This document shows, piece by piece, positions 42,976 through 60,934 of a stretch of DNA of 64,000 nt (its first letter is position 1; each line of letters starts with the position of its first letter). The position numbers were made by a program, and so were the translations under genes. This DNA is from Streptomyces sp. NBC_01268 (GTDB lineage Bacteria > Actinomycetota > Actinomycetes > Streptomycetales > Streptomycetaceae): assembly GCF_036240795.1 (NCBI RefSeq), contig NZ_CP108454.1:8120001-8184000 (forward strand), written 5' to 3'. The notes under the pieces were generated by a model, which saw nothing but the letters and a program-made list of their open reading frames with translations, searched no databases and was not told the origin of the DNA.

Positions 42976-44655
42976 GTGACCCGTTCCCGTTCCGAATTCC
43001 GTTCCCATTCCGCCGAGCCGCCCCGAGCTCTCGAGCGCACGGGCCCCCTCACCTTCGGGCAGCTCGCGCAGCTCGTGGAGTACGAGGAAGTGCTCGTCGG
43101 CGCCCCGGAAGCCGCGTGGACCCGGACGCTGACCCAGCGATGGGCTCTCCCTGCGGACACCGAGGTCTCCGCGGTACGCGACGCCTTGGCGCTGCTTGCC
43201 CGCCGGCACGAGATCGTCCGTACGACCTTCGAGCGGGACGACTCCGGAGACCCGGTCCAGAAGGTGTGGAAACCGGGAGCCGAGCGGATCCGGACGATCG
43301 ACCCGGGAGCTCTTGCGAGCGAGGCCGGATGGACAGAGTCCTACCTGGCGTCGCTCCGGCGAGAGCCGCTTCCCGTCGGCATGGAGCCGCCGATCACCTT
43401 CGACATCCTTGCCGAGGGAGACACGGCGAAGGACGTGCTGATCGCGTTCCACCACATCGTCGCCGACTACCGGAGCATGCAGATCCTCCACCGCGAGTTC
43501 CTCAGCGCGTTGACGCTGCTGAGCCAGGGGAAGACGGATCTGGCGGTCGCGCCGCCACGGCAGCCGATCGACGAGGCGCTGATCCAGGCGGCTCGCGCCG
43601 GCCAGGAGGGCGACGGTCTCGAGCCCTGGCGGGAGGTGCTGGACGCGACGGCCCCCACCTCGTACCCGCGGTGGGACGAACGCCGCTCGGCGGGCTACAC
43701 GGCCACGTTCGCATCGGAGTCGCTCCAGCACGCGGTCTCCGTCCTGTCCCAGCGGAACGGGCTGTGGCCGGCCCAGGCGTTGCTGGGCCTCTACGCCTTC
43801 GTCATCGCCCGCTACACCGGCTTGCCCTCCACGTCCCTGTGCGTCATCTCCTCCAACAGGTTCACCTATCCGACGGGCGTCCACTGCTGCGCCCTGCGTG
43901 TGCCCGTCGTCCTTCCCACGGGAGCAGTGGCTCCGGATGAGCTCATGAAGACCGTGGAGGCCGCGACAAGGAATCTGCATCGGAACGCCGACCACGACGC
44001 TCGCGCTCTTCGCAGGATGCTGGACGGCCGCCAGGAGAGCACGGGATTCAACACCCGCCTGAGACTGGAGTACAACTTCTTCTCCCGACGCGGTGGGGCC
44101 ATCCGTACGGGCATGCCGTACGGCACGCGATCCCCCAGCACATTCCGTCACGAACCCACGGAACCGGCCGACCCGACCCTCACCTATCTCGCGGCGCGGC
44201 CCGGCAGAGGAACGGAACCCATGGTGCTCTCTCTCGAAGCCAACGAAGCCTTTCTGCCGCTGCCGGCCGCCTCGGCCCTCTTGCGTGCCTTGGAAAGCCT
44301 GGGTGCGGAACTCGCGGCGGCCGGAGACGAGGAGAAGGGTCGGGAAGAGGAAGGAACCGTCAGCTGGGCCGCGCACATGGACCTCGCGCTCAACGCGCGG
44401 CCCGCGGTGTCCGGGCTGCTCGCCTTCCGGTCCGGGTACGTCGACGCGCACCGGATCGTACGGGCCGTCAACGCCGAGCTGGGTGACGGGTGCGTGGTCG
44501 ATGTGGCGGTACGTGGCCGGGGAACACCGCGCGAGCGGCTCGCGGTCCGTCTGTCAGAGTCTCCAGGGCACGAGGCGACAGCGGATCTGCTGGCGAAATT
44601 GCGTCGCCGGGCACACCGTGACCCGTCGCTGGTGATCCCGACCGAGGTAATGTGA
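42976..44655 (+). CDS. Stand-alone NRPS condensation-domain protein
   Basis: 559 residues from GTG 42976 (AAGGGAG 6 nt upstream). Residues ~20-440 are a condensation domain: LALLARRHEIVRTTFERDD, then VLIAFHHIVADYRSMQILHR with the catalytic HHxxxD (HHIVAD), ISSNRFTYPTGVHCCALRVP and LRLEYNFFSRRG. The last ~110 residues form a small alpha/beta extension (AVSGLLAFRSGYVDAHRIVR, ERLAVRLSESPGHEA), resembling the end of an adenylation domain. Condensation domains form amides between carrier-bound acyl groups and amines. With the ACP and two adenylate-forming enzymes downstream it could join an acyl or amino acid group to the ribosomal peptide. It is transcribed in the same direction, 320 bp ahead of the precursor gene. 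Confidence 0.85.
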   Translation: MTRSRSEFRSHSAEPPRALERTGPLTFGQLAQLVEYEEVLVGAPEAAWTRTLTQRWALPADTEVSAVRDALALLARRHEIVRTTFERDDSGDPVQKVWKPGAERIRTIDPGALASEAGWTESYLASLRREPLPVGMEPPITFDILAEGDTAKDVLIAFHHIVADYRSMQILHREFLSALTLLSQGKTDLAVAPPRQPIDEALIQAARAGQEGDGLEPWREVLDATAPTSYPRWDERRSAGYTATFASESLQHAVSVLSQRNGLWPAQALLGLYAFVIARYTGLPSTSLCVISSNRFTYPTGVHCCALRVPVVLPTGAVAPDELMKTVEAATRNLHRNADHDARALRRMLDGRQESTGFNTRLRLEYNFFSRRGGAIRTGMPYGTRSPSTFRHEPTEPADPTLTYLAARPGRGTEPMVLSLEANEAFLPLPAASALLRALESLGAELAAAGDEEKGREEEGTVSWAAHMDLALNARPAVSGLLAFRSGYVDAHRIVRAVNAELGDGCVVDVAVRGRGTPRERLAVRLSESPGHEATADLLAKLRRRAHRDPSLVIPTEVM

Positions 44656-44854
44656 CATTTTATTGGGCGGATACCCTGCGTAACGAGAGGGAGTGCGGGC
44701 TTCGGTCCGCCGACCGGGTGGTCGAGGTCCTGGTAGCCCCCACCAGCCAATCTCTGTTTCTGGGAGTCTCAGAGTCAACTGGCCTTAATCCGCGCTGTAG
44801 TGACAGACGGTCAGCTCCGGTGTTCGTTCGGCCCTGCTCCCGGACCACTACTCC

Positions 44855-44884
44855 TTGACCGTCGTTGAGCAGGCCTCCTAGCGT
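44855..44884 (+). promoter_or_regulatory. Promoter of the precursor gene
   Basis: TTGACC (44855-44860), an 18-bp spacer and TAGCGT (44879-44884) form a good HrdB-type promoter. Transcription would start near 44891, excluding the longer in-frame ATG 44886 and leaving ATG 44976, which has GAAGGG 6 nt upstream. Confidence 0.6.
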
Positions 44885-44975
44885 GATGCCACGGCGATCT
44901 CGTCGTGCCATGCGAGGCAGACATGGCGCGGGGGGACCGTTCGTTGTCCGTGTTGGCAGACAAGAAGGGCTGAAA

Positions 44976-45266
44976 ATGGCTATGACTGACGGTCGGGCGA
45001 TGGTCCCGGCTTCGAGTGACAACGGTCGTGCGCGGGCGATGGTCCCGGCTTCGAGTGACAACGGTCGTGCGCGGGCGATGGTCCCGGCTTCGAGTGACAA
45101 TGGCCGTGCGCGGGCGATGGTCCCGGCTTCGAGTGACAATGGCCGTGCGCGGGCGATGGTCCCGGCTTCGAGTGACAACGGCCGCGTCCGGGCGATGGTC
45201 CCGGCTTCCAGTGACAACGGCCGCGTCCGGCCGACGGCCCTGGCCTCCCGTCACAACGCTCGCTGA
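44976..45266 (+). CDS. Multi-core RiPP precursor peptide
   Basis: 96 residues: a six-residue N-terminus (MAMTDG), then RAMVPASSDNG six times without change, separated by RA (four times) or RV (twice), and a degenerate seventh unit RPTALASRHNAR before the stop. The unit is 13 residues. Each core has two adjacent Ser, substrates for YcaO-type cyclodehydration to oxazoles; there is no Cys. Arg at every junction suits release by the M16 peptidase. A recognisable leader is absent, which is unusual. Sequence and position beside a YcaO operon support the call; processing and modification are inference. Confidence 0.85.
   Translation: MAMTDGRAMVPASSDNGRARAMVPASSDNGRARAMVPASSDNGRARAMVPASSDNGRARAMVPASSDNGRVRAMVPASSDNGRVRPTALASRHNAR
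44994..45266 (+). repeat. Seven 39-bp core repeats of the precursor
   Basis: Units start at 44994, 45033, 45072, 45111, 45150, 45189 and 45228. Units 1-2 and 3-4 are identical within pairs, and units 1-6 differ only at synonymous sites and in the RA/RV linker; unit 7 is diverged. The pattern indicates stepwise duplication under selection on the core. Confidence 0.95.
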
Positions 45267-45572: not shown

Positions 45573-46961
45573 GTGCCGACCAAGAGCGCGAACTTGGGCG
45601 AGGCGCTCGACGGTTGGCTCGACGCGACGACGCACGGACTCGGCGACGTGCCCGCCGACCTCGTCGACGATGCCGCCGCGGCGTCCGCGGACTTCATGCT
45701 CTGCGCGTTGATCAGCCGGCTGCTGCCGGCCGAAGACGGGCGGGAGCGCGATCAGGGCATGGAGGCTGCCGGTCCGGCCGTGTGGTGGACCGGAGCGGTT
45801 CACCGTGCGGAGGTGGCGGCGGAGGCGAACCTGCTGGCGGGGATCGCCGCCGACTTCGACGCGGTGCACTACCTGGCCGGTGGTCATCTCTCGGCCTTCC
45901 TGGCGCCGGCGCTGCTCGGCCGCAGGGACCTGCCCCTGGACGCGGCACTTCGGCTGCAGGCCATCGCCACGGAGTTCGCCGTCCGTGTCGGCCAGGTGAT
46001 CAAGGACCGTGCACGCCTCAAGGGGCTGCACGTCACCCCCCTCGTGGGCGGATTGAGCAGTGTGTACGCGCTCGCGCTCGCCAACGGCTACTCCCCGGAC
46101 CGGGTGAAGTGGTGTCTGCGGCTCTTCCTTTCGACGTTCCGGTCCGACTACGGGCTCCTGGGCAGCGACGGGCGCCTCTACCAGATGGCCCAGGCCATGC
46201 GGCAGGCCCATGCCGCCGTCGCCGAGGGGGGTGTCCACACGCGCCTCGACCTCGCCTCGGCCCGTGAGTGGTGGCGGCCCCTCACGACGCTCGGCATCCC
46301 GATCGACTCCCCGACTGAATCGAACGCAGCCCATGACCTCCCGGCCGGTCTGCCGGACGGCTGGATCTCCGGCGACAGGTTCACCGACCTGAAACCGATG
46401 CCGTGCTGTGCGTACTTCTTCTCCGTCCTCGCGGTGGTCGCCGGGCTGCGTGGCCGTGTCGCCACCGATTCCGTCCGCCGGCTGGAGGTCCACGTCCCCC
46501 GGTACGCGTTCGTCGCCCACCGTGGTGCGGGCGACGGCTCGTGGCTGGCGCCGTTCGACCTGGCCCACAACGTCGCGATCTGCTGGCTTCTGGGGCGGGA
46601 CAGCTGGACCCCGCTGCCCGAGCTGACCCGTGACGAGGTCCGCGCGATGCGCGAGCTGGTCCACCTGCGCGTCACCTCCGACGACCTGCCGGTGACCGCC
46701 GTGGCCGTGACGGCGGACGGAACCGGCGCCGAAGTCACGCTGGCGGCAGGGGACTTGCCCCCGGTCGACGGTGCCGCCCGACGCCACGCTGCCCTGCGGC
46801 AGAAATGCGACGTCGTCCGGCGGCGCCTCGGACCCGCGTGGAACGCGCCGCGTGCCGACCAAGGGGCGGGCGAACTCCTGCGTGAGCTGCTGGACAGGAG
46901 CGGACAGGACGTACGGGGCCTGGCGACCGGCCTTCCCACACTGAACGGAGCATTCCAGTGA
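45573..46961 (+). CDS. MmgE/PrpD-family protein in the peptide cluster
   Basis: 462 residues from GTG 45573. The MmgE/PrpD fold is recognised from AAEANLLAGIAADFDAVHYL, GGHLSAFLAPALLGRRDLPL (the His-Pro-like active-site loop, here HLS), IATEFAVRVGQVIKD and the second-domain RFTDLKPMPCCAYFFSVLAV. Family members are 2-methylcitrate dehydratase, cis-aconitate decarboxylase and iminodisuccinate epimerase, all acting beside a carboxylate or imine. In a RiPP operon the expected substrate is the peptide, perhaps its Asp-Asn, by dehydration, epimerisation or cyclisation; that is inference. Its end overlaps the next start by 4 bp. Confidence 0.7.
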   Translation: MPTKSANLGEALDGWLDATTHGLGDVPADLVDDAAAASADFMLCALISRLLPAEDGRERDQGMEAAGPAVWWTGAVHRAEVAAEANLLAGIAADFDAVHYLAGGHLSAFLAPALLGRRDLPLDAALRLQAIATEFAVRVGQVIKDRARLKGLHVTPLVGGLSSVYALALANGYSPDRVKWCLRLFLSTFRSDYGLLGSDGRLYQMAQAMRQAHAAVAEGGVHTRLDLASAREWWRPLTTLGIPIDSPTESNAAHDLPAGLPDGWISGDRFTDLKPMPCCAYFFSVLAVVAGLRGRVATDSVRRLEVHVPRYAFVAHRGAGDGSWLAPFDLAHNVAICWLLGRDSWTPLPELTRDEVRAMRELVHLRVTSDDLPVTAVAVTADGTGAEVTLAAGDLPPVDGAARRHAALRQKCDVVRRRLGPAWNAPRADQGAGELLRELLDRSGQDVRGLATGLPTLNGAFQ

Positions 46962-47551
46962 CTTTTCCTCCGGTTGAGATATCCCGTCTGTACCTCCATT
47001 CCTCACCGTCCCGCGAGGCGGTCCGCCGGGAGGTGGAGTCGCTGGTGAGCGGTGACGCGCGACTCGGCGCGGTGCCTGCGGCCGGGTCCTACGGTCCCGG
47101 AGTGCTGTGCGTGGACGTGGCCGGATTCGAGGAACGGCAGGACGTGCTCGCGCGTGCGCCGCACGTCGTGCGTCGAGGTGGCCTGCACCTGCCCGTCGTC
47201 ATCGACGACGAGGGCACGTCGATCGGTCCGCTCACGACGCCGGGCTTCTCGGCCTGTCTGCAATGTGCCGCGCACGTCGCGGACCGGGCGGCCCCGACCC
47301 CGGACCCCGCCGCCGTGCCGTCCCCCGCGCCCGCCGCCCTCACCCCCCTCGTCGCCGCCCTCATCTCGGCCACCGTCGCCCTCGAGGCCGGCAGGATCGT
47401 GTGCGACCCCGACCGGCTGCCCCTCTCCCTCGGCCACGTCGTCCGCGTCGAGCACGACACCGGGGCGGTGGCGATACTCGCCGTCACCCAGGTCGACGGG
47501 TGCGAGGTGTGCGGGTCCCTCATCGAGCTCGCCCTGGGGGGAGAGCTGTGA
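46958..47551 (+). CDS. Short ThiF-like cyclodehydratase partner (TOMM E1-like), N-terminally reduced
   Basis: 197 residues from GTG 46958, coupled by GTGA to the preceding gene. VIDDEGTSIGPLTTPGFSACLQC is followed by a second pair GCEVC: C100-x-x-C103 and C182-x-x-C185, the zinc site of TOMM E1-like (ocin-ThiF-like) proteins, which bind the precursor and activate the YcaO enzyme. SIGPLTTPG is the family hallmark. The usual proteins are longer (about 350 residues or more); here the N-terminal part is only ~80 residues, and the adenylation motif is missing. It overlaps the YcaO start by 4 bp, so the two should form one cyclodehydratase. Confidence 0.75.
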   Translation: MTFPPVEISRLYLHSSPSREAVRREVESLVSGDARLGAVPAAGSYGPGVLCVDVAGFEERQDVLARAPHVVRRGGLHLPVVIDDEGTSIGPLTTPGFSACLQCAAHVADRAAPTPDPAAVPSPAPAALTPLVAALISATVALEAGRIVCDPDRLPLSLGHVVRVEHDTGAVAILAVTQVDGCEVCGSLIELALGGEL

Positions 47552-48747
47552 ACGACGGCGTACGCCCGGCCGCCCCCGACACCCTTGGCCTGCTGGAGGA
47601 CCTCCTCGTCCGGCGGAGCGGGTCGATCTCCTCGCTGCAGCCCCTCGACGACTTCTACAACGACGAGCCCCGGGGGCAGGGATGGGTCGCACAGCTGCCG
47701 CCGAACGCCCACCGGCCGCAGGGGACCGCAGCCCTTCCCCGGGCCACCGGAGGCCGTGGCCGTGACCGCCTCGCCCGGCTGAAGGCGGTGATGGAGGCGG
47801 CCGAGCGCATCAGCCTCAGTACGGTGCCGCCCGAGCGCCTGACGTACGGCACGGCCGCCGAGCTCTCCGACCGCCTCGGTCCCGAGGCCTTCCCCGAACC
47901 CTGGCGCGGGTCCCCGGCCTGGGAGCGGCCCATGCACTGGTGCCGTGCCGTCAGGATCGGCGCCGAGGAGGCCGGTTTCGTCCTGGTGCCCGCCCAGTTG
48001 GTCTACTGCCCCTACTGGGAGCCGGACCGGCAAGCCATGCTGTGGGATCCGAGCAGCAACGGCGCGGCGGCCGCGTTCTCCTACGGCGACGCGGTGGCGC
48101 GTGCCTCGCGGGAGGCCTTCGAGCGCCATGTGATCCTGCTGGCGCACTACCTCCGGCTCGGCGGTGAGGAGCTCGACTGGCTCGACCTGGCGCTGGAGCC
48201 GGGGGCGCTGCTGATGGGGCTCGAAGCCCGCACTCTCGGCCTGCGCGTCCGGGTCGCCTGCCTGGTGCGCACCCCCTTCCCCGTGGTGGTCTGCGTCGTG
48301 GTCGACCCGACGAAGCGTTTTCCCGCGCTCACCACGGGAAGCGCGTGCGCGGTCACCGTCGAGCAGGCGGCGAGCTCCGCCATCAGCGAGGCCCTCCACG
48401 CCCGCAGGCAGGCACGGGACTTCCTCACGGACGTGCCGCCGGTGGAGGCGTCCGACCTCGAGACGATCGAGGAGCGGGTCGTCTACTGGGGACAGCCGGA
48501 CGCGCCCGGGCGACTGGAGTACCTCTTCGGCGGCTCCAGGCCCCTCGAGGGCACGTACACGCAGGGATACCTGGACGAGGGGTACGCGGCCGAGGTGACG
48601 GCCCCGCAGCTCGCCGACGCCGGTGTCAGCGTCGTGAAGGTCGTCCATCCGCGGCTGCAACCCCTCTTCTTCGCCGAGAGCGACAAGCTCCTGCTGGAGC
48701 AGGCACGCCGTTCGGCCATGTCCACCGATCCGCACCCCTACGCCTGA
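47548..48747 (+). CDS. YcaO cyclodehydratase
   Basis: 399 residues from GTG 47548. YcaO ATP-site motifs are present: DRLARLKAVMEAAERISLST (E-x(2)-E-R helix), SSNGAAAAFSYGDAVARASR with EAFERHVILL, then AASSAISEALHARRQARDF. The C-terminus ends TDPHPYA, like the Pro-rich tails needed for catalysis in cyclodehydratases. These enzymes phosphorylate backbone amides with ATP to form azolines from Ser, Thr or Cys. Because the core contains only Ser residues, oxazolines are expected. Translationally coupled to the E1-like partner upstream; a SagB-type dehydrogenase gene follows 9 bp downstream. Confidence 0.9.
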   Translation: MNDGVRPAAPDTLGLLEDLLVRRSGSISSLQPLDDFYNDEPRGQGWVAQLPPNAHRPQGTAALPRATGGRGRDRLARLKAVMEAAERISLSTVPPERLTYGTAAELSDRLGPEAFPEPWRGSPAWERPMHWCRAVRIGAEEAGFVLVPAQLVYCPYWEPDRQAMLWDPSSNGAAAAFSYGDAVARASREAFERHVILLAHYLRLGGEELDWLDLALEPGALLMGLEARTLGLRVRVACLVRTPFPVVVCVVVDPTKRFPALTTGSACAVTVEQAASSAISEALHARRQARDFLTDVPPVEASDLETIEERVVYWGQPDAPGRLEYLFGGSRPLEGTYTQGYLDEGYAAEVTAPQLADAGVSVVKVVHPRLQPLFFAESDKLLLEQARRSAMSTDPHPYA

Positions 48748-48756
48748 CAGGACACG

Positions 48757-49548
48757 ATGACGATGGCGGACAAGGAAGCGACGGCCACCGCGCTCGACTT
48801 CCACCGCGGCACCCACGCCGATGCCGCGATGCTGGCCGACTGGCAAATGCTGCCGACCGACCAGTGGCCGGACGAGTGGTTCACGTACAACGAGAAGGTC
48901 TACCCACGCCTGGACGGCACCCCGCTGCCGGTCCCCGGATCCCCTCCTTCCGCGGCGGGCGCCGACTGGCTCGAACGCCGGACCAGCACCCGCACCCCTC
49001 TCGACGAGATGACGCTCGCCGACCTCGCCCACGTCCTCTGGTACACGACGCACTCCCGGCCGGCCGACCAGGACGGCCCCCTCGACTGGCACCGCCCGTA
49101 CCCCTCGGCCGGCGGCCGGCTGGGGTGCGAGTTCTACGTCATCGCGCAGAACGTTTCGGGACTGACCTCCGGGGTCTACAACTACCAGGTAAGACAGCAT
49201 GAGTTGGTGCGCCTCCGGGCGGGACTGACTCCGAAGGTCCTGCGCTTCCTCTTCGGCGACGGATGGACGGCACGCACCTGCGCCTTCGTCGTCGCGACGG
49301 TCTCGCTCGACCGGCTGGAGACCAAGTACGGCCAACGGGGCTACCGGTACGGCCTCGTGGAAGCCGGCGCGGCCGCCCAGACGCTCTGTCTCGTCGCGGC
49401 CTCGGCATCCCTGGGCACCTGCGTCATCGGCGGATTCGCCGACGTACCGATGGGCCAACTCCTCTTGTGCACACCGAACTCGGAACTCCCCGTGCTGGCC
49501 GTCGCCTTCGGCGACATCGAGGAGGGACGAGCCGATGCTCGTGACTGA
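48757..49548 (+). CDS. SagB-type FMN azoline dehydrogenase (nitroreductase fold)
   Basis: 263 residues. The nitroreductase fold of the ThcOx/SagB group: LERRTSTRTPLDEMTLADLA, RPYPSAGGRLGCEFYVIAQN (the PSAGG FMN phosphate motif), VYNYQVRQHELVRL, YGLVEAGAAAQTLCLVAASA and CVIGGFAD. Enzymes of this group oxidise azolines to azoles with FMN. Adjacent YcaO and E1-like proteins make that function very likely. It overlaps the JmjC gene by 14 bp. The N-terminal ~65 residues are an extension of unknown role. Confidence 0.88.
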   Translation: MTMADKEATATALDFHRGTHADAAMLADWQMLPTDQWPDEWFTYNEKVYPRLDGTPLPVPGSPPSAAGADWLERRTSTRTPLDEMTLADLAHVLWYTTHSRPADQDGPLDWHRPYPSAGGRLGCEFYVIAQNVSGLTSGVYNYQVRQHELVRLRAGLTPKVLRFLFGDGWTARTCAFVVATVSLDRLETKYGQRGYRYGLVEAGAAAQTLCLVAASASLGTCVIGGFADVPMGQLLLCTPNSELPVLAVAFGDIEEGRADARD

Positions 49549-50590
49549 CCACGCGGTCGACAGCGTCCTGGGCGTGTCGCATGCCGAGCTGTCCGAGGCC
49601 ATGGGCAGACGGTGGTTCCACAAGACAGGCGCCCTGAGGCCGGAGGCCACGTTCGGATGGAACGCCCTCAACAAGGCACTGCGGTACGGGAATCTGGGCA
49701 CCGACCAGGTCCGCCTGGTCGGCGGCGACGTGGCGACCGAAGAACTGTTCCACCGCGCCGTCGCGGGCGGCTCCCGGGTGTACCACCGGATCGCCCCGCA
49801 GGCCGTACACCGGGGGCTCGACAGCGGTGGCACCCTCGTCATCGACCAGCTCGACCTGGTGGACCCCTGGGCCGACCAGGTGGCGCGCGCCCTGTCGGGG
49901 GTCTTCTCGGCGCGGGTCCAGGCCAATGTCTACGCCTCGCTGCGCGGCGCGCCGGGCTTCGGCGCGCACCGTGACACCCATGACGTCTTCGTCGTCCAGG
50001 GCAGCGGGCGCAAGCACTGGACCGTGGCGCCGGGCGACGGCACCGACGAGGTGCGCCTCACCATGGAACCGGGCGACGTCCTGTATCTGCCCGAGGGCAC
50101 GACCCACGACGTGGCCACGCACGCGCAAGGATCCCTGCACATCACGTTCGCCGTCCCCCGGCCGAACCTGCAAGAGCTCCTGACATGGCGGGCCGCTGAT
50201 TCGGGCGGCACCTTCCTGCGCACCGCCGTCGACCCGTCCGACCCCGCGGCCGCCGCCGCGTCCGTCGCGCAGTGGGCGGGACGTGTCGTCGGCGAGGCCG
50301 ACATCCGCCGCTTCCTGGAGGACGCTGTTGGCGGCGCCATGGCACCCTCCTGCACGAACCTGCCCTATGCGTGCGGTGACCCGTCCGTTCTGGAGGGACT
50401 GTCCGCGCGGCGGTCGTTCGTCTGCGTCCTGCCCGACGGGGCCACCGACCACGCGCGGGTCCTCGCCCGGCTGACGGCGACCGACCGTACCCCTGTGAAG
50501 GAACTCCTCGCTGGCGTCGCGGTGGACGACCCGGTCGCCGTCGTCGGCGATCTCATGCGGTGGGGCCTGATCGACGTGTCGGAGACGTGA
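49535..50590 (+). CDS. JmjC/cupin_4-type Fe(II)/2OG oxygenase (ROXA/YcfD-like)
   Basis: 351 residues from ATG 49535 (GAGGAGGGA 7 nt upstream). The JmjC core is GAPGFGAHRDTHDVFVVQGS with H145-x-D147, GRKHWTVAPG, then EPGDVLYLPEGTTHDVATHA supplying the third ligand H191 and GSLHITFAV closing the barrel. A C-terminal ~120-residue winged-helix-like domain follows, as in ribosomal oxygenases such as YcfD. Such enzymes hydroxylate residues of proteins. In this operon a side chain of the core peptide (for example Val, Pro, Asp or Asn) is the probable target. Confidence 0.82.
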   Translation: MLVTDHAVDSVLGVSHAELSEAMGRRWFHKTGALRPEATFGWNALNKALRYGNLGTDQVRLVGGDVATEELFHRAVAGGSRVYHRIAPQAVHRGLDSGGTLVIDQLDLVDPWADQVARALSGVFSARVQANVYASLRGAPGFGAHRDTHDVFVVQGSGRKHWTVAPGDGTDEVRLTMEPGDVLYLPEGTTHDVATHAQGSLHITFAVPRPNLQELLTWRAADSGGTFLRTAVDPSDPAAAAASVAQWAGRVVGEADIRRFLEDAVGGAMAPSCTNLPYACGDPSVLEGLSARRSFVCVLPDGATDHARVLARLTATDRTPVKELLAGVAVDDPVAVVGDLMRWGLIDVSET

Positions 50591-50592
50591 GC

Positions 50593-51708
50593 ATGCGCCG
50601 CACACGAGAAGCGGAGGCCGGTTTCGGCTGGTCCGAGCAGCGGGGTGACACCGCGGCCCTCGCGCTGGTGTTCCCGGCGGGCTTCGCTGCGGAAGGGGCC
50701 GACCGGCCGGGCCTGGCCCACTTCACGGAACACATGATCATGGCGCCGTCGGGGGGACGCGCGGAACCGTACGCGTCCCTCGAAGAGGCGGGCTGCCTCC
50801 TGGAGGCCCGGACACGAAGGGACCACATGACCGTCACGGTCAGCGGGCCCCAGGACTCCTTCCTGGACGCCGTCGGTACCGTCGTGGCCCATCTCGCCGA
50901 CCTGGAGCGGCCCGACGGCACCGCCGACCGCCAGGCGGAGATCATCCGCAACGAGGTGCTGGACAAGACCCGGCTCGCGCCCCAGTCGGACACCTGGCGC
51001 TGGTGCGTGCCCACCCCCGACGGGCCGATCGGACTCGACCACGACCCGATCACCTCACCGGCGCTGTCGGGATCCGTCGGCCATGCCGGGACCTGGCGGG
51101 CCTTCGCCGCGGAGCGGGTCCGCCTGGACGGGTGCGCCGTCGGGCTGGCGGCGGACCCGACCAGGGTCCGCCCCGAGGACGTGGCGTCGTTGCTCGGTCC
51201 GAGGACGTGGGGAGAGCGGGCCCCGGCCTCGGCGCCCGCGCACTTCAGGGCCGCGGGCGTGCGGCGGCACGCGCTCGTCGTCCCCGTCGTGGACGACGGT
51301 CCGTCCGGGCAGGCCGCCGCCCTCGTGGCCGGACACCTGTTCGCGGCCAGGGCCGCGACGGTCCATCGGCGGCGGCCCGCACCCGTACGGTACGGCCTGT
51401 TCGACGAGTGGTTCAGCGAGAGCGGACCGACGGCCCTGGAAGTTCCGCTGCCGGTCGGATTCGACCCGACGGCACACGAGCACGAGCTGCTGCGAAGCCT
51501 CCGCGCCGCTGTCGACCCCGGCCGGACGACACGTGCGGGTGAGCAGCTGTCCGAGCAGTGGCGTACGCGTACCGAAACGGCCTCGGCAGGCGCCCGATCG
51601 ATCGCCTGGGCCGCGTTCGCGCGACATCACGGCGACCCGTTCGTCCACGTCGACCTCGACCTCGTCGCGCGTCACCTGGAGACGATCACCGTCTGGGAGG
51701 AGCACTGA
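50593..51708 (+). CDS. M16-family metallopeptidase
   Basis: 371 residues. The inverted zinc motif HxxEH is HFTEH at residues 43-47, and E121 in EIIRNEVLDKT is the third ligand at the expected spacing. The second half-domain is the non-catalytic M16 repeat (ERVRLDGCAVGLAADPTRVR). M16 peptidases cleave small peptides inside a clam-shell chamber, and in some RiPP pathways remove or separate cores. Start ATG 50593 fits a GGAG 8 nt upstream; GTG 50587 would overlap the preceding stop by 4 bp. It overlaps its small partner by 1 bp. Confidence 0.85.
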   Translation: MRRTREAEAGFGWSEQRGDTAALALVFPAGFAAEGADRPGLAHFTEHMIMAPSGGRAEPYASLEEAGCLLEARTRRDHMTVTVSGPQDSFLDAVGTVVAHLADLERPDGTADRQAEIIRNEVLDKTRLAPQSDTWRWCVPTPDGPIGLDHDPITSPALSGSVGHAGTWRAFAAERVRLDGCAVGLAADPTRVRPEDVASLLGPRTWGERAPASAPAHFRAAGVRRHALVVPVVDDGPSGQAAALVAGHLFAARAATVHRRRPAPVRYGLFDEWFSESGPTALEVPLPVGFDPTAHEHELLRSLRAAVDPGRTTRAGEQLSEQWRTRTETASAGARSIAWAAFARHHGDPFVHVDLDLVARHLETITVWEEH

Positions 51709-52280
51709 TGCCCGGCCCCGCGACCCGGACGACCCGCTGGGGCGAGGGCATGGACCTGCTCCGGCGGCCCTCGCACTTCGCCGCGACCGTGCCGGTCCCC
51801 CTCGCGGGCCCCGATGACGTCCTGGCGTGGCTGTGCCTGTGCGAAAGCCTCGCCGGAGGGTTCACGAGCCCGTTGACCCGCGCGGGACGGCTCGACGGCA
51901 CGCTCTTCCGCGTCAGGCTCGCGCTCCTGCCCGGTGCAGGGGAGGAAGGCGTCCTGGCCCTGACGTTCACAGCGTCCGCGCACACCGAGGCGGCCAATAC
52001 CCGGGCCGTGCTCCACGCCCTGACCGCGGTCGTGCACCAGGACCCGGTCGCGCTCCCTCCATGGCGGAGCGCGGCACGACGCCTCTCCACCCGCCTGGCC
52101 ACCACCGACCCCATGCCGCCGTACTCGCCTTGGCGGCGTCACCCGTACGACGCGCACCTGGACGACCCGGTGGCCTGGGCCACCCGCACCCCGCCGCCCC
52201 AGTCCCACCGGCAACGGCTCGCGGTGCTCCTGCGGGCACTGTCGGAGCACGGCGCGGGCACGGAAGGACACGCATGCTGA
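51708..52280 (+). CDS. Small M16-like partner protein lacking the zinc motif
   Basis: 190 residues beginning at the last base of the M16 stop (TGATG). Patterns such as WLCLCESLAGGFTSPLTRAG and LALTFTASAHTEAANTRAVL resemble a C-terminal half-domain of M16 peptidases, without HxxEH. Pairs of catalytic and non-catalytic M16 subunits occur in mitochondrial processing peptidase and in some RiPP clusters. Identity as an M16 half is tentative: I see only the glycine-containing loop and strand order. It may complete the chamber of the upstream peptidase. Confidence 0.5.
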   Translation: MPGPATRTTRWGEGMDLLRRPSHFAATVPVPLAGPDDVLAWLCLCESLAGGFTSPLTRAGRLDGTLFRVRLALLPGAGEEGVLALTFTASAHTEAANTRAVLHALTAVVHQDPVALPPWRSAARRLSTRLATTDPMPPYSPWRRHPYDAHLDDPVAWATRTPPPQSHRQRLAVLLRALSEHGAGTEGHAC

Positions 52281-53527
52281 CACCCCCCTCCGCCCCCGAG
52301 AAGGCGACGGACCGCGTCCGCCTCCTCCGCCGCGTCAGTACGGTCTCCAGCCTTGAGGACGGCGCCTTCACCGTCGTCCTCCCGGTCCTCGCGCAGAAGT
52401 CGGCCGGCAGCATGGGCGTGGCGGCCGTCTTCATCGCCGTCACCGCTCCCTGGGCCCTGGCATCGCTGCCCCTCGGCTACCTCGCGGACCACCTGTCGCG
52501 GACACGGCTCGCGAAGGCGGCCGCGCTCGGACGCCTCGGCTTCGCCGCGCTCCTCGCGACCCTGCCCCTCTGGGGCGGCTACGACCAGTGGCTGTTCACC
52601 GCCGTGGCATTCGGCCTGGGCACCTGCGGCGTGGCCTCGGAGATCGCGCGTCAGTCCCTCGTACCGCAACTCGTCGCCCAACCCGAGGACCTGGTCGCGG
52701 CCAACGTGGAGATCGCGAAGGTCTCCCAGCTCTACGGGGCGTTCGTCGGGCCCCTGCTGGCCGGGACGCTCCTGTCCTGGAACCAGTCGCTGACCACGAC
52801 GGTCCTGGCCGTCCTCGCCGTTCTCACCCTCCTGTTCACCCTGCGGCTGCCACCCGTCCCGCCCTTGCGGGACGAGCCCATGCGGCCGCGGACCATGGTC
52901 GGAGACGGCCTCGGCGGATTCCGGTACATCTGGCGCACCCGCACCCTGCTGGCCCTCGCCGCGTCGAGTTGCCTCGTCTCCGTCATCTGGTACGTCTGGG
53001 AGACCTCCTTCACGGCCTACGCCCTCGCCGACGACGGCCTCGCGGCCTCCGACCTCGTCTACTCGCTGCTGCTCCTGTCCGGGGCAGCCGGCGGGTTCGT
53101 CGGCGCCCGGCTGGTCCAGCGGATGCTGCGCGCGTTCCCCCTGAGCACCGCGCTGTCACTGAGCCTGGTCGGCTGGACCGTGTGGTTCGCCGTGCCGGCC
53201 TTCACGTCGAACTGGTTCGCCGTGGCCGGCAGCCTGCTCGTCGGCGGCTGCAGCGGCCTTCTGTGGAACACCATCTCGATCTCCGTACGGCAGCTGGTGA
53301 CGTCCGTCGAGATCCTCGGCAGGACCACGGCCGCCTACCGCGTCATCACCAGGACCGGCCGCGTCATCGGAGCCGCGCTCGCCGCCCTCCTCATGGCGCA
53401 CATGCCGTGGCAGCACATCCTGGCCGCGTGCGCGGGCGCCATCGCCCTGACAGCCCTCGGCCTCCACCTCCTGTACCGCGACGGCACCGCGAACGGTGCG
53501 GAGCCGCTGACGAAGGAGCAGGGATGA
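52274..53527 (+). CDS. MFS exporter
   Basis: 417 residues, 12 hydrophobic segments, starting inside the end of the previous gene (7-bp overlap; GGAAGGA upstream). Motif A is LGYLADHLSRTRLAKAAALG; the second half begins near 205 with RYIWRTRTLLALAASSCLVS. The layout matches the MFS_3 group of exporters (EntS/MefA type). It is the only transporter in the cluster and should export the finished peptide or give self-protection. ATGA overlap links it to the adenylate-forming enzyme. Confidence 0.85.
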   Translation: MLTPPSAPEKATDRVRLLRRVSTVSSLEDGAFTVVLPVLAQKSAGSMGVAAVFIAVTAPWALASLPLGYLADHLSRTRLAKAAALGRLGFAALLATLPLWGGYDQWLFTAVAFGLGTCGVASEIARQSLVPQLVAQPEDLVAANVEIAKVSQLYGAFVGPLLAGTLLSWNQSLTTTVLAVLAVLTLLFTLRLPPVPPLRDEPMRPRTMVGDGLGGFRYIWRTRTLLALAASSCLVSVIWYVWETSFTAYALADDGLAASDLVYSLLLLSGAAGGFVGARLVQRMLRAFPLSTALSLSLVGWTVWFAVPAFTSNWFAVAGSLLVGGCSGLLWNTISISVRQLVTSVEILGRTTAAYRVITRTGRVIGAALAALLMAHMPWQHILAACAGAIALTALGLHLLYRDGTANGAEPLTKEQG

Positions 53528-54981
53528 CGACACCCGCGTCCGTTCGTGGACCGCGGCCACCGGCCACGGACTGGACACCCCGCGCGACCCTGGTGCTGCA
53601 CACCCAGGACGAGGGCATCGAGGTGCTGCGCCCCGAGCACCTCGCGGAGCGCCTTCCGCACGTGAGGGAGCGGCTTCGCCGGTCCGCGGGCGACGACCGA
53701 AGCGTCTGCCTCGTGCCCGACCCGCGACAGCCGTTCGCGCACTACCTGACGGAGCTCCTCGCGGCACTCGCGATGCCGCACCCGGTGGCCCTGCTCCACG
53801 CCGGAAGCCACGCCTCGCCACTCGCCGAGCTGGCCGGGCACGGAATCCGGGCCTGCACCCTCCGCACAGCCGCCGGCCACGAGCCCCTCCCCGCCGCCCC
53901 CGCGCCCCTGCCCGACCAGGCCCTCCTGCTGAGGACGGGCGGCTCCAGCGGCCGGTCCCGCTTCGCGGTCAACACCAGCATGCGCCGCGCGCTCGTACGC
54001 GACCGCAGACTGAGCCTCGCGCGCGCTGTCGGCCTGCGCGACGGGGCACGGGTCCTGCTCGCCGGCCCGGTCGGCCACGCCGCCCACCTGAGCATGCTCC
54101 TGGACACGGTGAACCACGAGGCCGAGGTGCATCTGTACGAGAGCCCCGACCCGGCGCGGGTCCTGCCCGACATCCGCCGCCACGGCATCCAGTGGCTCAC
54201 CGCCACCCCCTTGCACCTGCGCATCATGATGCGCCAGATGCGAGACGCCCGCGGCACGGCGGAGCTCGAAAAGCTCGTCCACATGAGCGCGGCCTGCGGC
54301 GAACCGGTCAAGAGGTTCTGGCACTCCGTCCTCGGCCCCGAGAACGTCTACGAGGTGTTCGGCTCCTCCGAGGGCATCGGCACCACGATCGCCCGAGGCG
54401 ACGAATGGGAACGCCGTCCCGGCACCGTCGGCAGGGGCTTCTACACCTCCGTGGCCGTCCTCGACCCCGCGGGCCGCCCCGTACCGGCAGGTGAGCCGGG
54501 CGACGTCTACTTCGCCTACGGCGCTCCGGCGCGCCCTCTCCACGTCGGCCACGGGGACCACGTCCGGTGGACGGGCAACGGGCTGGTCGGCATCGGCGAC
54601 CGCGGCTTCCTCGACGACGACGGCTTCCTCCACCTGGAGACCAGACCGCAGCTCCGCATCACGGTCGGCGGCACCACGGTCGTGGCCACGGACGTCGAGG
54701 ACGCACTCCTCGCGTTCCCGTGGGTCCACGACGCGGCAGCGGCCGGCATCGCCAACCAGGTGACGGGACAACGCGTGATCGGCTTCGTCGTGCTCGACGC
54801 CCACGCCCCGGCCACCTGGGCGGCCGAACTCGCCGCGGAACTGCGCCAGAACCTCCCGGCGGCAGCCGTACCCCGCCACGTGTTCGCCGTCGACTCCGTC
54901 CCCCGGGCCCCGTCCGGCAAGGTCGACCGCGCCGCGATCGCAGCCCTGGCCGACGCACACTCCAGGAAGGAAACAGAATGA
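53524..54981 (+). CDS. Adenylate-forming enzyme 1 (AMP-binding)
   Basis: 485 residues. ANL-family motifs: LLLRTGGSSGRSRFAVNTSM (P-loop-like A3, with the Lys position not conserved), EVFGSSEGIGTT (A5), GIGDRGFLDDDGFLHLETRP (A7-A8) and PRAPSGKVDRAAI (A10, catalytic Lys). It activates a carboxylate as an acyl-AMP, normally for loading onto a carrier protein. The carrier gene is next, overlapping by 4 bp. The substrate code cannot be read with confidence. A second, different ANL enzyme follows the carrier protein, so two distinct acids may be loaded. Confidence 0.85.
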   Translation: MTTPASVRGPRPPATDWTPRATLVLHTQDEGIEVLRPEHLAERLPHVRERLRRSAGDDRSVCLVPDPRQPFAHYLTELLAALAMPHPVALLHAGSHASPLAELAGHGIRACTLRTAAGHEPLPAAPAPLPDQALLLRTGGSSGRSRFAVNTSMRRALVRDRRLSLARAVGLRDGARVLLAGPVGHAAHLSMLLDTVNHEAEVHLYESPDPARVLPDIRRHGIQWLTATPLHLRIMMRQMRDARGTAELEKLVHMSAACGEPVKRFWHSVLGPENVYEVFGSSEGIGTTIARGDEWERRPGTVGRGFYTSVAVLDPAGRPVPAGEPGDVYFAYGAPARPLHVGHGDHVRWTGNGLVGIGDRGFLDDDGFLHLETRPQLRITVGGTTVVATDVEDALLAFPWVHDAAAAGIANQVTGQRVIGFVVLDAHAPATWAAELAAELRQNLPAAAVPRHVFAVDSVPRAPSGKVDRAAIAALADAHSRKETE

Positions 54982-55460
54982 CGCACACGCTCCTCGACAA
55001 CCCGAACTTCAGCGGCATCCGGCGCCGCACGCCCGACGGCCGGCACGTGGTGGCCGTGTCCCTCCGGTCCTACATGTCCGTCCCCGAGATCAGAGCCGCG
55101 CTGGCGGAGCTCCTCGGCGACCAGGCGGGCGAGATCGACTTCGCCGTACTGCACGCGGGGGAGGAGGCGACCGCCGACGCGGTCAGTGACACCACGCTGC
55201 TCACCGGGAACTTCCACGCCATGCACGCCCCAGGGAGCGTCGTGGAGACCGAGCTCGCGGAGCGGATCACGCTGATGATGACCGAGGACGCGGTCGTGAG
55301 CATGTCCGACAGCATCGGCGACCTGGGAGGGGACTCCCTCATGTGCCTGGAGCTCAGCGAGGCACTCATCAGCATGTGGGGAGTGGAGATCGACCCGGTG
55401 GAGATCTTCCGCATGAACTCCCTGAAGGAACTGGCCGACGACATCGAGGCCAGGCGGTGA
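54978..55460 (+). CDS. Acyl/peptidyl carrier protein with N-terminal extension
   Basis: 160 residues. The C-terminal carrier domain (residues ~85-158) has IGDLGGDSLMCLELSEALIS with Ser120 as the phosphopantetheine site and GVEIDPVEIFRMNSLKELAD as helices III-IV. The N-terminal ~80 residues (VVAVSLRSYMSVPEIRAALA) form an extra alpha/beta domain of unknown role, unusual for a free-standing carrier. It overlaps both flanking adenylate-forming enzyme genes by 4 bp, so the three are made together. Confidence 0.88.
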   Translation: MTHTLLDNPNFSGIRRRTPDGRHVVAVSLRSYMSVPEIRAALAELLGDQAGEIDFAVLHAGEEATADAVSDTTLLTGNFHAMHAPGSVVETELAERITLMMTEDAVVSMSDSIGDLGGDSLMCLELSEALISMWGVEIDPVEIFRMNSLKELADDIEARR

Positions 55461-56884
55461 CGTCCCGGTCGCTGGACCTCCTGGCCGGCGCCGCACCCGA
55501 CGCACCGGCCCTCCTCGAGAAGGCCCGCGTGGTGACGCGCGGGCAGGCGCGCACGATGACCGAGGAGACGGCCCGCTTCCTCGGCGACGACCGCAAGAAA
55601 CTCGTGATGGTCGAGAACCCCCGCTCGCTACCGGGAGCCCTGGCCTGCCTGGCCGCGCTGCGCGCGGGACACGCGGTGCTGCCGGTCGAGGCCCTCACCC
55701 CCGACGACGCCCGGACCTACATCGACAGGCTGCGCCCCGACGTGCTGGTCGGGCCCACGTGCACAGCCGCAGCGGACACCCCGGCCGGATACGGCCGCCC
55801 CGAGACCGCCCCGCACATCGGGACGGTCCGCCGCGCACCCGGCAGTCAAACCACCTCACTCGCAGAGGAGTTGGCCCTAGTACTGCGCACCTCCGGATCC
55901 ACCTCCCACGGCAGGCTCGTGCGCCTCTCGTACGACAACCTCGCGAGCAACGCCGCAAGCATCGGCACGGCGACGAGCATCCGACCCACCGACGTCGCGG
56001 CGACATCGCTGCGCATGGACCACAGCTTCGGACTGTCCCTGTTCACCTCCCACCTGGCCGCCGGCGCCGCCGTGGGACTGCTCACCGCCACGCCCAGCTC
56101 CGACCGCTTCTGGGCAGAGGCCAGGATCCTCGGCGCGACCTGCGCGGGCCTGGTCCCCTCCACGGCCCGGTTCATCCTGCGCAGCCACGAGTCCGCCGCG
56201 AAGCTGGCGACCCTCAGATCCCTCCTGGTCGCCGGAGGGCCGGCGAGCCCCGACGAACTGCGCCGGCTGCGAGAACACGCCCGGTCGGTGTACTACATGT
56301 ACGGGCAGACCGAAGCGACGGCACGCATGACCTGTCTGGACCCGGCCGCCGCCGCCGACCACGAGGGCAGCGTCGGGACCCCCGTGCCGGGCGGACACAT
56401 CGAGATCCGCGGCCACGACGGAACCCCGCTCCCCGAAGGGCGCCTCGGCGAGGTCTACTACCGGGGACCGAACGTCATGCTGGGATACGCCGGTTCGCGC
56501 GCCGACCTGGCCCTGCCGGACGTCACCGGCGACACCCTGCGGACCGGCGACCTCGGCCGCGCCAGGGGCGGCATGCTGTACCTCGAAGGCCGTATCGACC
56601 GGCAGGTCAAGGTACTCGGGCAGCGGGTGAACCTCGACGCCGTCGAGGCGACGGCGACGGCGACGCTCGGCGGAACGGCCACAGCCGCCGTGCACACCGC
56701 GCCCGACGAGGTCTCCCTCTACGTGGAGGGAGACCCGGAGCACATGGAGTGCCTCCGCGCAGCGGACCTCGCCTACCTGGGAGTCCCGCGAGGATCCCTG
56801 AGACTGCGTACCACGCCACGGCTCCCGAGAACACCCTCGGGAAAGATCAGATACGCGGCCGTAGGCCGTCACGGCACCGCCTAG
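55457..56884 (+). CDS. Adenylate-forming enzyme 2 (AMP-binding)
   Basis: 475 residues from GTG 55457. ANL motifs: LALVLRTSGSTSHGRLVRLS (A3, Lys replaced by His-Gly-Arg), YYMYGQTEATARM (A5), TGDLGRARGGMLYLEGRIDR (A7-A8) and PRTPSGKIRYAAV (A10 with catalytic Lys). The sequence is closer to free-standing acyl-ACP ligases than to NRPS A-domains. It may charge the carrier protein with a fatty or hydroxy acid while enzyme 1 loads an amino acid, or the two may supply alternative substrates. Overlaps the carrier gene by 4 bp. Confidence 0.83.
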   Translation: MTSRSLDLLAGAAPDAPALLEKARVVTRGQARTMTEETARFLGDDRKKLVMVENPRSLPGALACLAALRAGHAVLPVEALTPDDARTYIDRLRPDVLVGPTCTAAADTPAGYGRPETAPHIGTVRRAPGSQTTSLAEELALVLRTSGSTSHGRLVRLSYDNLASNAASIGTATSIRPTDVAATSLRMDHSFGLSLFTSHLAAGAAVGLLTATPSSDRFWAEARILGATCAGLVPSTARFILRSHESAAKLATLRSLLVAGGPASPDELRRLREHARSVYYMYGQTEATARMTCLDPAAAADHEGSVGTPVPGGHIEIRGHDGTPLPEGRLGEVYYRGPNVMLGYAGSRADLALPDVTGDTLRTGDLGRARGGMLYLEGRIDRQVKVLGQRVNLDAVEATATATLGGTATAAVHTAPDEVSLYVEGDPEHMECLRAADLAYLGVPRGSLRLRTTPRLPRTPSGKIRYAAVGRHGTA

Positions 56885-56938
56885 AAAGCAGCGGGTATCG
56901 TGACCCTGCCCCGACACGCAGCGAAAGGCGCATCAGCC

Positions 56939-57958
56939 ATGAGCCTGTCCGAACCCGCGGCACGGATCCGCTCGTTGCTGGAAAAGTGGGTCGCACGCAG
57001 GACGCTCCTCGGAGCCCAGGTCTTCCACCGGCACGACGGCGACGTGACCGACATCGCGGTGGGAGAGGCCGCTCCCGGAGTCGCGGCCACCCCCGATGTC
57101 GTCGGCCGTGTCTACTGCGCCAACAAGTCCGTCCTGGCCGTCACGGCCGGAGTCGCCTCGCAGGAGGGGCTGCTCGACCTGAAGGACCCGATGGCGCGCT
57201 TCTTCGACAACTGCGCCCCCTCCATGGCCACGGTGACGGTCGCCGATCTCCTCGGGCACACCTCCGGTCTCCCTACCGCACTCCACAAGAGCACCGGTTC
57301 CCTGGAGGAGCGGGCCCGCCGCATCGTGGCCTCCGGCTCGCGCCAGCCGGGCCCCGCCCGCTACAACACACAGAGCGCCGCGGCCGTACTCGGGTCGGTC
57401 CTCGAGCGCCTGTACGGGCTCCCGCTCGCGGACGTCGTCGACGAGAAGGTGGCCCGCCCCCTGGCGCTGCGCGACCTGGCGCTCGTCCCGCGCCCGCACC
57501 AGCAGTACGTCCCGCTGCACCGCCGGGACGGCACCATGCGCTTCGTCCCGGTCGCCGACGAGGACATGGGTCTCCACCCCGCGAACCCGGGGCAGGCGGG
57601 CGTCTCCACGGCATCCGACATCGGCCGCCTCCACGCGGACCTCGTGGACTCCCTGCGTGGCGGAGGCAAGCTCCTCGACCGCCCGACGGCCGCGGCGCTG
57701 TGCGCGGTGAACGCCACGGTGCAGCTGCACGACCTCGGCGCCCGCAGCTGGGGCCTCGGCGTCCAACGCGACCTGCACGAGGGCATCCTCGGCGAAGGCT
57801 GGAGCCCCGAGACCTTCGGCCACATCGGCACCACCCCCCGCCGCATCGTCACCCTCCACGCCGCCGACCCGGCCTCCGGCCGCGTGATGGCCCTGCGCCT
57901 GTTCAGCGTCGCGGAGATCAACGACCGCTGCGTCCAGGAACTCACCAGAATCGCGTGA
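56939..57958 (+). CDS. Beta-lactamase-fold enzyme with Cys at the nucleophile position
   Basis: 339 residues from ATG 56939 (AAAGG upstream; GTG 56900 is longer without a ribosome site). The class C/penicillin-binding fold is clear: VGRVYCANKSVLAVTAG aligns with the S-x-x-K helix, LLDLKDPMARFF, LLGHTSGLPTALHKSTG, YNTQSAAAVLGSVLERLYG and FGHIGTT (the H-x-G motif, H295-G297). The nucleophile is Cys60 (C-x-x-K63), and the second motif is Y142-N-T instead of Y-x-N. In NRPS pathways, PBP-type thioesterases with this fold release or cyclise carrier-bound peptides; here that role fits, because a carrier protein is present. A thiol nucleophile is unusual in this fold. Last gene before the operon terminator. 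Confidence 0.75.
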   Translation: MSLSEPAARIRSLLEKWVARRTLLGAQVFHRHDGDVTDIAVGEAAPGVAATPDVVGRVYCANKSVLAVTAGVASQEGLLDLKDPMARFFDNCAPSMATVTVADLLGHTSGLPTALHKSTGSLEERARRIVASGSRQPGPARYNTQSAAAVLGSVLERLYGLPLADVVDEKVARPLALRDLALVPRPHQQYVPLHRRDGTMRFVPVADEDMGLHPANPGQAGVSTASDIGRLHADLVDSLRGGGKLLDRPTAAALCAVNATVQLHDLGARSWGLGVQRDLHEGILGEGWSPETFGHIGTTPRRIVTLHAADPASGRVMALRLFSVAEINDRCVQELTRIA

Positions 57959-60806: not shown

Positions 60807-60857
60807 GAACACACCTCCGTGCTCAGTGTGTCCAACGGGTGACGTTCTGTCGATGTG

Positions 60858-60897: not shown

Positions 60898-60934
60898 GTG
60901 TCGGAGAGCCGCAGCGCTCGTACGCTCCTGCGGC

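Follow-up and report, generated by a model that had tools for sequence, protein, structure and literature searches.

The 64,000 bp stretch analysed here (the window) covers bases 8,120,001–8,184,000 of the single-contig 8.5 Mb genome of Streptomyces sp. NBC_01268, and carries a cluster of 14 genes, all on the + strand, spanning positions 42976–57958 (Table 1). A repetitive precursor gene stands there with the genes of azole-forming enzymes, of a stand-alone condensation (C) domain protein, of an acyl carrier protein (ACP), of two ligases, ANL1 and ANL2, and of a beta-lactamase-fold enzyme. That the azole genes and the carrier, ligase and beta-lactamase-fold genes make up one conserved system is well supported by sequence comparison. 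How the system would work, with an acid joined to a ribosomal azole peptide, is proposed below more tentatively.

A YcaO scan of genome contigs gave five loci besides that of the window: L002 (S. gardneri), L003 (Streptomyces sp. 130), L004 (S. bobili), L005 (S. harenosi) and L006 (Streptomyces sp. AC550_RSS872). Eleven genes, called in these loci with our own codon-usage script, were common to all six: those for the precursor, the E1-like protein, YcaO, the SagB-type dehydrogenase, the M16 peptidase, a 190-aa protein, the exporter of the major facilitator superfamily (MFS), ANL1, the ACP, ANL2 and the beta-lactamase-fold enzyme. The last gene was truncated in L004 and complete in L025, which belongs to the same contig. 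The gene order shifted, with the beta-lactamase-fold gene lying upstream in L003 and L005, and both this gene and the M16 pair in L006. The enzymes of L003–L006 were 42–69% identical to those of the window.

Among 392 sampled genomes of the same genus, the searches for YcaO (E ≤ 1e-60) and for the beta-lactamase-fold gene (E ≤ 1e-40) recovered an identical set of three, made up of the genome of the window, G305 and G352. The latter two are the S. gardneri (L002) and S. bobili (L004) records and bring no extra loci, so that this search shows absence elsewhere rather than new occurrences. The identical distribution of the two genes argues for one system and not for two neighbours. The C protein (E ≤ 1e-25) was present in two of the 392 genomes, both within the YcaO-bearing three. 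ANL2 (E ≤ 1e-60) was matched in eight genomes, at 63–100% identity in the YcaO-bearing three and at 39–42% in the five others. In two of these five (L020 and L021) the neighbourhood of the ANL2 gene included ANL1-like, carrier and C-type genes, and the azole genes had no match there; in the other three the match was inside a long reading frame of 853–880 aa. In L020 (genome G139) and L021 (G001), two clusters of the same genus, the ANL1-like, ANL2-like, carrier and C-type proteins all stand alone, and L020 also shows a row of reading frames of approximately 220–480 aa. When the YcaO alignment was compared with 394 genomes of the class (E ≤ 1e-50), only the window's own genome was recovered. 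The genus and class searches are samples of 392–394 genomes from larger groups, and their strict thresholds (1e-25 to 1e-60) leave weaker relatives uncounted. Among 5.8 billion proteins, YcaO (E ≤ 1e-40) and the beta-lactamase-fold enzyme (E ≤ 1e-20) had nine matches each, approximately 8000 candidates sharing most words being scored per query; the named organisms in both lists were Streptomyces and one Streptacidiphilus. Plasmid-borne relatives were discarded, as the four records found held only distant YcaOs at approximately 24% identity.

These distributions bear on the possibility that two unrelated clusters, an azole RiPP (ribosomally synthesized and post-translationally modified peptide) operon and an operon resembling those of nonribosomal peptide synthetases (NRPS), happen to lie side by side. 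An ANL2/ACP/C-type module does exist elsewhere without YcaO, its ANL2 being 37–42% identical. However, the genes form one overlapping operon, both halves are kept in six of six loci despite the changes in order, and YcaO and the beta-lactamase-fold gene occupy the same three of 392 genomes. The idea is largely rejected by the shared loci and the identical occurrence, and we consider it most improbable. The first-pass annotation had described a hybrid of an azole half and a carrier/ligase half, and the five additional loci, each keeping both, agree with it. Homologues of the flanking genes occurring without YcaO, named there as what would speak against the hybrid, were encountered only as the ANL2 relatives at 39–42% identity in five genomes, which are not orthologues.

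The tandem-repeat precursor announced by the same annotation was recovered as a strong array with a period of 39 bp, 5.9 copies and 96% match (Tandem Repeats Finder). In the window it encodes six intact AMVPASSDNGR units followed by one degenerate seventh. Six copies were also found in L002 and in L005, and six in L006 with Gly replacing Ala; L003 showed a single copy and the array of L004 was broken by Ns. The single copy of L003 could reflect the collapse of repeats in a short-read assembly; searching the whole genome of this strain for the pattern gave no further unit. Over the 25 complete units of the window, L002, L003, L005 and L006 (L004 being excluded for its Ns), ten of the 11 residues were invariant and residue 5 was either Ala (19 units) or Gly (6 units). 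Nine of the 11 codon positions varied, always synonymously except for the Ala/Gly change, and this rules out a chance repeat or a non-coding array. The array ends with NGR-stop in L002, L003, L004 and L005, with NGRQ-stop in L006 and with the degenerate unit in the window; the unit is therefore considered to end at NGR, and AR, VR or SR to be the linker. From the likeliest ATG, only a few residues precede the first unit: seven in the window and L002, five in L004, L005 and L006, and four in L003. Up to the nearest upstream in-frame stop, no in-frame start gives a leader of more than four residues in L003 or five in L004. A protein search with the precursor as query returned zero matches, the precursor itself included, probably owing to its repetitiveness, and a literature search for fragments of the unit sequence returned unrelated papers only.

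The enzymes encoded next to this array are those expected for azole formation. The E1-like protein was recognized by TIGR03882 (38.8 bits for a cut-off of 36.9) and showed its CxxC pairs in six of six loci, and the SagB-type dehydrogenase was well above the cut-off of TIGR03605 (107.4 versus 78.4 bits). The YcaO glutamates E84, E87, E190 and E193, which we take to be the ATP ligands, were invariant in the six loci. Azole-forming enzymes convert Cys, Ser and Thr. The unit contains neither Cys nor Thr, and its Ser residues are Ser6 and Ser7 only; these being the sole convertible residues, two adjacent oxazoles are predicted from the sequence. The presence of an E1-like protein, YcaO and SagB-type dehydrogenase near a small precursor gene is shared with the azole RiPPs known as thiazole/oxazole-modified microcins (TOMM) or linear azol(in)e-containing peptides (LAP). 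Unlike the precursors of that style, with an N-terminal leader and a core rich in Cys, Ser and Thr, the present one has almost no leader, repeats an 11-residue unit six times and offers two Ser, adjacent, per 13-residue repeat; in addition, a C domain, a carrier protein and two ligases adjoin the azole genes. Another comparison is muscoride A, reportedly a cyanobactin with adjacent oxazoles made by cyanobactin enzymes and prenylation. This is likewise a short peptide, and the bis-azole proposed here would also follow a Val-Pro-type start, but the present cluster differs by its M16 proteins and its ANL/ACP/C module. In Pfam, none of the 14 cluster proteins matched a subtilisin-type protease or a prenyltransferase family.

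The M16 peptidase carries the HxxEH motif, presumably its zinc motif, as HF(T/A)EH in six of six loci. The following gene, at 51708–52280, had been overlooked in the first-pass gene list; all of the genes named there were located by family or sequence calls at the given place on the + strand. Its 190-aa product matched no Pfam or NCBIfam family above cut-off and had no relative in the PDB by sequence. A model of this protein (predicted local distance difference test, pLDDT, of 74) matched bc1 core subunits and M16 peptidases in Foldseek, with a best E-value of 3e-4 and TM-scores of approximately 0.45–0.53 for the better matches. On the basis of this model we propose that it may be the partner half of a split M16 protease. 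An Arg precedes the first unit in all loci but L003, where it is a Gln, and an Arg closes every intact unit, so that a cut after Arg is the simplest prediction. Passages of the review PMC10885120 report heteromeric M16 proteases (PttP1/PttP2) that mature class III lanthipeptides, and mention MusD of muscoride. The similarity lies in the use of a heteromeric M16 protease for RiPP maturation; here the RiPP class is another one, the partner would amount to half a protein (190 aa), and the predicted cuts follow the Arg residues between the units of the repeat. In fungi, the multi-copy precursors processed by kexin, such as that of alpha-factor, consist of identical units placed head to tail. They share with the present array the repetition and the basic processing sites, the differences being the bacterial host, the M16 metalloprotease and the azole-forming enzymes.

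The families of the nonribosomal half are present as separate proteins (PF00501, PF00550 with GGDS, and PF00668), and no multidomain NRPS synthetase was found by Pfam among the 14 cluster proteins. The GGDS site of the ACP is kept in six of six loci; a search of PDB sequences with this protein gave nothing informative. The closest solved relative of ANL1 is a bile acid-CoA ligase, and the closest solved structure to ANL2 is VinN (3wvn, E-value of 7e-27). According to passages of PMC11253843 and PMC7756342, Asp230 of VinN binds the amine of the substrate, whereas Ser299 and Arg331 bind the carboxylate. By motif in the alignment, and not by numbered structure, ANL2 has a Ser at the position of Asp230 and keeps the Arg of the KR motif (Arg331), both in six of six loci. 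The substrate is therefore predicted to be an acid that has another carboxylate but lacks an amine, and the candidacy of ANL2 as an amino acid-activating enzyme is weakened. The arrangement resembles VinN/VinL in its stand-alone adenylation enzyme, free-standing carrier and conserved Arg331 (as far as described in the same passages of PMC11253843 and PMC7756342), and departs from it by the Ser, present in all six loci, which makes an amino acid substrate unlikely. A further difference is that no pyridoxal phosphate-dependent decarboxylase was found by Pfam among the 14 cluster proteins.

In the beta-lactamase-fold protein, assigned by PF00144 (103 bits), the HMMER alignment placed CANK on the SxxK motif of the family (compared with 1ci8 and 7y3z). 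The CxxK motif was present in nine of nine aligned sequences, that is the window's and eight of its nine matches, P0010 being excluded as 99% identical. Cys60, Lys63, Tyr142, Asn143 and His295 were invariant in the nine, and H295 and G297 were likewise invariant; the Tyr region reads YN and is not a strict YxN. A thioesterase of the penicillin-binding protein type had been suggested for this gene. The fold family was correct, but the catalytic Ser of the family is replaced by Cys, a nucleophile which would fit acyl transfer from a thioester.

The C domain gene was found in five of the six loci: the window, L002, L003 (on the opposite strand), L004/L025 and L005. The proteins of the window and of L002 are 75% identical and occupy the same position; that of L003 falls under the Pfam cut-off (25.9 versus 30.6). 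The HHIVAD of the window is presumed to play the role generally attributed to HHxxxD in C domains. Next to the C-type gene of L003, at 3186–5563 on the - strand, are two Gfo/Idh/MocA oxidoreductase genes, possibly for extra tailoring. About 9 kb past the ANL2 gene of L006, a reading frame of approximately 2370 aa (L041, 2889–9992, - strand) contains four C-type matches and may be a separate NRPS.

Two other genes had been noted as parts of the cluster, for an MmgE/PrpD protein and a JmjC oxygenase. The MmgE/PrpD assignment is carried by the fold and not by the Pfam match, which is below the cut-off (18.2 versus 32.1 bits). The model, built on four sequences and of moderate confidence (pLDDT of 59), gave 17 PDB matches at E ≤ 1e-3 in Foldseek, all of the IRG1/PrpD/MmgE/iminodisuccinate epimerase family. 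The top matches, with E-values from 2e-7 to 8e-6, were IRG1/cis-aconitate decarboxylase, iminodisuccinate epimerase and 2-methylcitrate dehydratase. A search of PDB sequences returned mostly designed-repeat noise, together with the B. subtilis IRG1 at 1.3e-4. In the JmjC protein, the HxD and the later H, presumably the iron ligands, are kept in all five loci that bear the gene (the window and four others).

Both genes are present in the window and yet not obligatory, as the L006 cluster lacks them. The whole genome of this strain (G392) gave no MmgE/PrpD or JmjC match at E ≤ 1e-3, whereas the genomes of the four other relatives, in the same search, matched both (four of five each); the status of the two proteins as essential parts is thus weakened. 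Between the beta-lactamase-fold gene and the precursor, L006 has instead a TauD-family oxygenase (78.6 bits) and an aconitase-type pair, with a large subunit at 431 bits (cut-off 385) and a small subunit at 124 bits (cut-off 109). The other aconitase match of G392 is distinct from this large subunit (43% identity, confined to the C-terminal part), and the five other genomes showed only such distant matches to it. From the sequences, two types of hydro-lyase and two 2-oxoglutarate oxygenases seem to fill the same two slots. The paired replacement points to a polycarboxylate, as the suggested substrate of the MmgE/PrpD or aconitase-type enzyme, and to a hydroxylation.

We propose the following scheme for the cluster as one biosynthetic system, in which a ribosomal azole pathway and a stand-alone nonribosomal acylation module would act in turn; we place it a little short of an even chance. 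As there is almost no leader, the E1-like protein would recognize a feature within each unit or linker and present it to YcaO. Together with SagB, YcaO would convert Ser6-Ser7 to a bis-oxazole, with a loss of about 40 Da per unit. The split M16 protease would then cleave after Arg at both unit ends, in the fashion of a prohormone. The acid that ANL2 would load onto the carrier would be di- or tricarboxylic and non-amino; the MmgE/PrpD protein (the aconitase-type enzyme in one relative), and possibly also the oxygenase, would shape it. The C domain would couple this acyl group to the peptide at its N-terminal amine, and the beta-lactamase-fold enzyme, by its Cys, would transfer or trim the product, to be exported by the MFS protein. 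That this amounts to a new class of natural products is somewhat doubtful. Such a class would be defined by a near-leaderless, prohormone-like polyprotein with recognition inside the unit, by bis-oxazoles, by excision with a split M16 protease, and by a polycarboxylic acid fused to the peptide by a module of C domain, carrier, ligase and Cys-type beta-lactamase-fold acyltransferase.

Several observations weigh against this scheme. The E1-like protein passes its TIGR03882 cut-off only narrowly, YcaO stays under that of the SagD subfamily (82 versus 219 bits), and the YcaO C-terminus has only PHPY(A) and not a full PxPxP. The arrays of L003 (one unit) and L004 (interrupted), like the degenerate last unit of the window, depart from a uniform polyprotein, and upstream starts giving leaders of at least 20 residues exist in the window, L002, L005 and L006. 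The TM-scores of the MmgE/PrpD matches are just 0.37–0.50. No gene for building the carbon skeleton of the acid was found by Pfam among the 14 proteins, and the scheme assigns no role to ANL1. The C proteins outside the window and L002 are just 23–29% identical over the aligned parts. The full HHxxxD is restricted to the window and L002, being SHxxxD in L003, DHxxxD in L004/L025 and CHxxxD in L005; the second His and the Asp are thus retained in all five. A profile of the C-type proteins of these loci together with those of L020 and L021 detected none in the 21 kb of L006, so that either the C step is not universal or another protein performs it there. The sequences indicate a step that is common and variable, and not proven universal.

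Alternatively, the peptide may act as acyl donor, a reading suggested by the two ligases facing a single carrier. One ligase would activate the excised azole peptide, or part of it, for loading on the carrier by the carboxylate at its C-terminus. The C domain, or the beta-lactamase-fold enzyme with its Cys, would then join the peptide to an amine, so that it is amidated or cyclised at this end. The free carboxylate left at the unit end after Arg and the Cys nucleophile, suited to thioester transfer, are in keeping with this route. ANL1 and ANL2 nevertheless resemble ligases of small acids (bile acid-CoA ligase and VinN) and not activators of an 11-residue peptide, and the dedicated MmgE/aconitase-type enzymes suggest that a small acid is made; we think this route unlikely. 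The near-invariance of the 11-mer, in loci whose enzymes have diverged as far as described above, leads to another possibility, namely that the unit is mostly a recognition sequence, a scaffold from which only the Ser-Ser-derived fragment would enter the product and become a carrier-bound building block. The absence of a usual leader would place the recognition signal in the unit itself, and the sole tolerated change, Ala/Gly, adjoins Ser-Ser. On the other hand, a single two-part protease is not expected to trim the 11-mer to such a fragment, and invariance fits a bioactive 11-mer equally well, which leaves this scaffold improbable in our view, to about the same degree as the acyl-donor route.

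The nature of the product may also be considered. Beta-hydroxy-Asp/Asn residues made by oxygenases, oxazol(in)es and hydroxy-polycarboxylates are known iron ligands, and the cluster combines Asp8-Asn9 in every unit, an oxygenase (JmjC or TauD) in every locus and polycarboxylate-type enzymes. However, no iron-box was found across the window with a consensus allowing up to three mismatches; nor was any iron-siderophore uptake protein found by Pfam among the 14 cluster proteins. An iron-regulated siderophore is rejected or at least weakened by the lack of an iron-box match, and we hold a chelating product to be very unlikely.

Table 1. Genes of the cluster, with positions in the window
Feature	Position	Strand	Support
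Stand-alone condensation (C) domain protein, 559 aa, HHIVAD motif	42976–44655	+	Pfam PF00668, 63.2 bits
Precursor: MAMTDGR, six units AMVPASSDNGR with AR/VR joints, degenerate seventh	44976–45266	+	Translation
MmgE/PrpD-fold protein, GTG start	45573–46961	+	Foldseek of model; Pfam below cut-off
Short E1-like TOMM partner protein, 197 aa, two CxxC pairs	46958–47551	+	NCBIfam TIGR03882
YcaO cyclodehydratase	47548–48747	+	PF02624, 115 bits
SagB-type flavin mononucleotide (FMN) dehydrogenase	48757–49548	+	TIGR03605, 107.4 bits
JmjC_2/cupin 2-oxoglutarate oxygenase, HRD...H	49535–50590	+	PF08007, 75.4 bits
M16 peptidase, catalytic part, HFTEH; start 50587 or 50593	50587–51708	+	PF00675, 39.1 bits
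M16-fold partner, 190 aa, proposed second half of split M16 protease	51708–52280	+	Foldseek of model
MFS exporter	52274–53527	+	PF07690, 74.9 bits
ANL1, acyl-CoA/acyl-ACP ligase-like, 485 aa	53524–54981	+	PF00501 and PF13193
Acyl/peptidyl carrier protein (ACP), N-terminal extension of about 90 aa, GGDS attachment site	54978–55460	+	PF00550, 29.7 bits
ANL2, adenylation enzyme closest to VinN	55457–56884	+	PF00501, 151 bits
Beta-lactamase-fold enzyme, CxxK for SxxK; start 56900 or 56939	56900–57958	+	PF00144, 103 bits

From the MmgE/PrpD gene (45573) onwards, neighbouring genes overlap by 1–14 bp, except for two short gaps of 9 bp before the SagB gene and 15 bp before the beta-lactamase-fold gene. 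The first-pass annotation had rightly seen an overlapping run from this position, with overlaps given as 1–17 bp. The C and precursor genes stand outside this run, with 320 bp from the end of the C gene to the precursor and 306 bp from the end of the precursor to the MmgE/PrpD gene. The same order of C, precursor and MmgE genes was found in S. gardneri (L002). A scan for promoters and terminators gave no signal above that of shuffled sequences.

Downstream of the cluster and outside the operon, a small reading frame at 58241–58711 (- strand) looked secreted, with a signal-peptide-like start as judged by eye. It is followed at 58913–59938 (+ strand) by a gene for an ArsR/MarR-type regulator-like protein, below the Pfam cut-offs, which had no match at E ≤ 1e-3 in the five related loci, some of which end near the cluster. 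Two tandem repeats were seen outside the cluster: the heptanucleotide AAGCCGT, in 11.7 copies at 40038–40119, flanked by genes for a PF04672 methyltransferase and a lipase-like protein, and the 8-base sequence GGTGCGTC, in 5.5 perfect copies at 60857–60900.

A text search of the open PMC literature showed such a cluster in none of the papers listed, which is weak evidence of novelty. Lipolanthines and goadvionins are reportedly RiPPs that carry a fatty acyl or a polyketide chain. They have in common with our proposal a ribosomal peptide acylated through a carrier-based pathway, and differ by their fatty-acid or polyketide machinery and another acyltransferase, in place of the stand-alone C domain and ANL ligases seen here. 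A RiPP/NRPS junction of this kind was not found described for YcaO systems in the open-access literature searched. If the proposed scheme is true, a C domain and a carrier protein would act on a ribosomal azole peptide, joining two logics of natural-product biosynthesis. The array would then represent a bacterial azole RiPP that can do nearly without a leader and matures as prohormones do, and the beta-lactamase fold would have a branch with a Cys nucleophile. The paired enzyme replacement across the six loci, MmgE/PrpD and JmjC versus aconitase-type and TauD, would in turn predict the chemistry of the acyl part.

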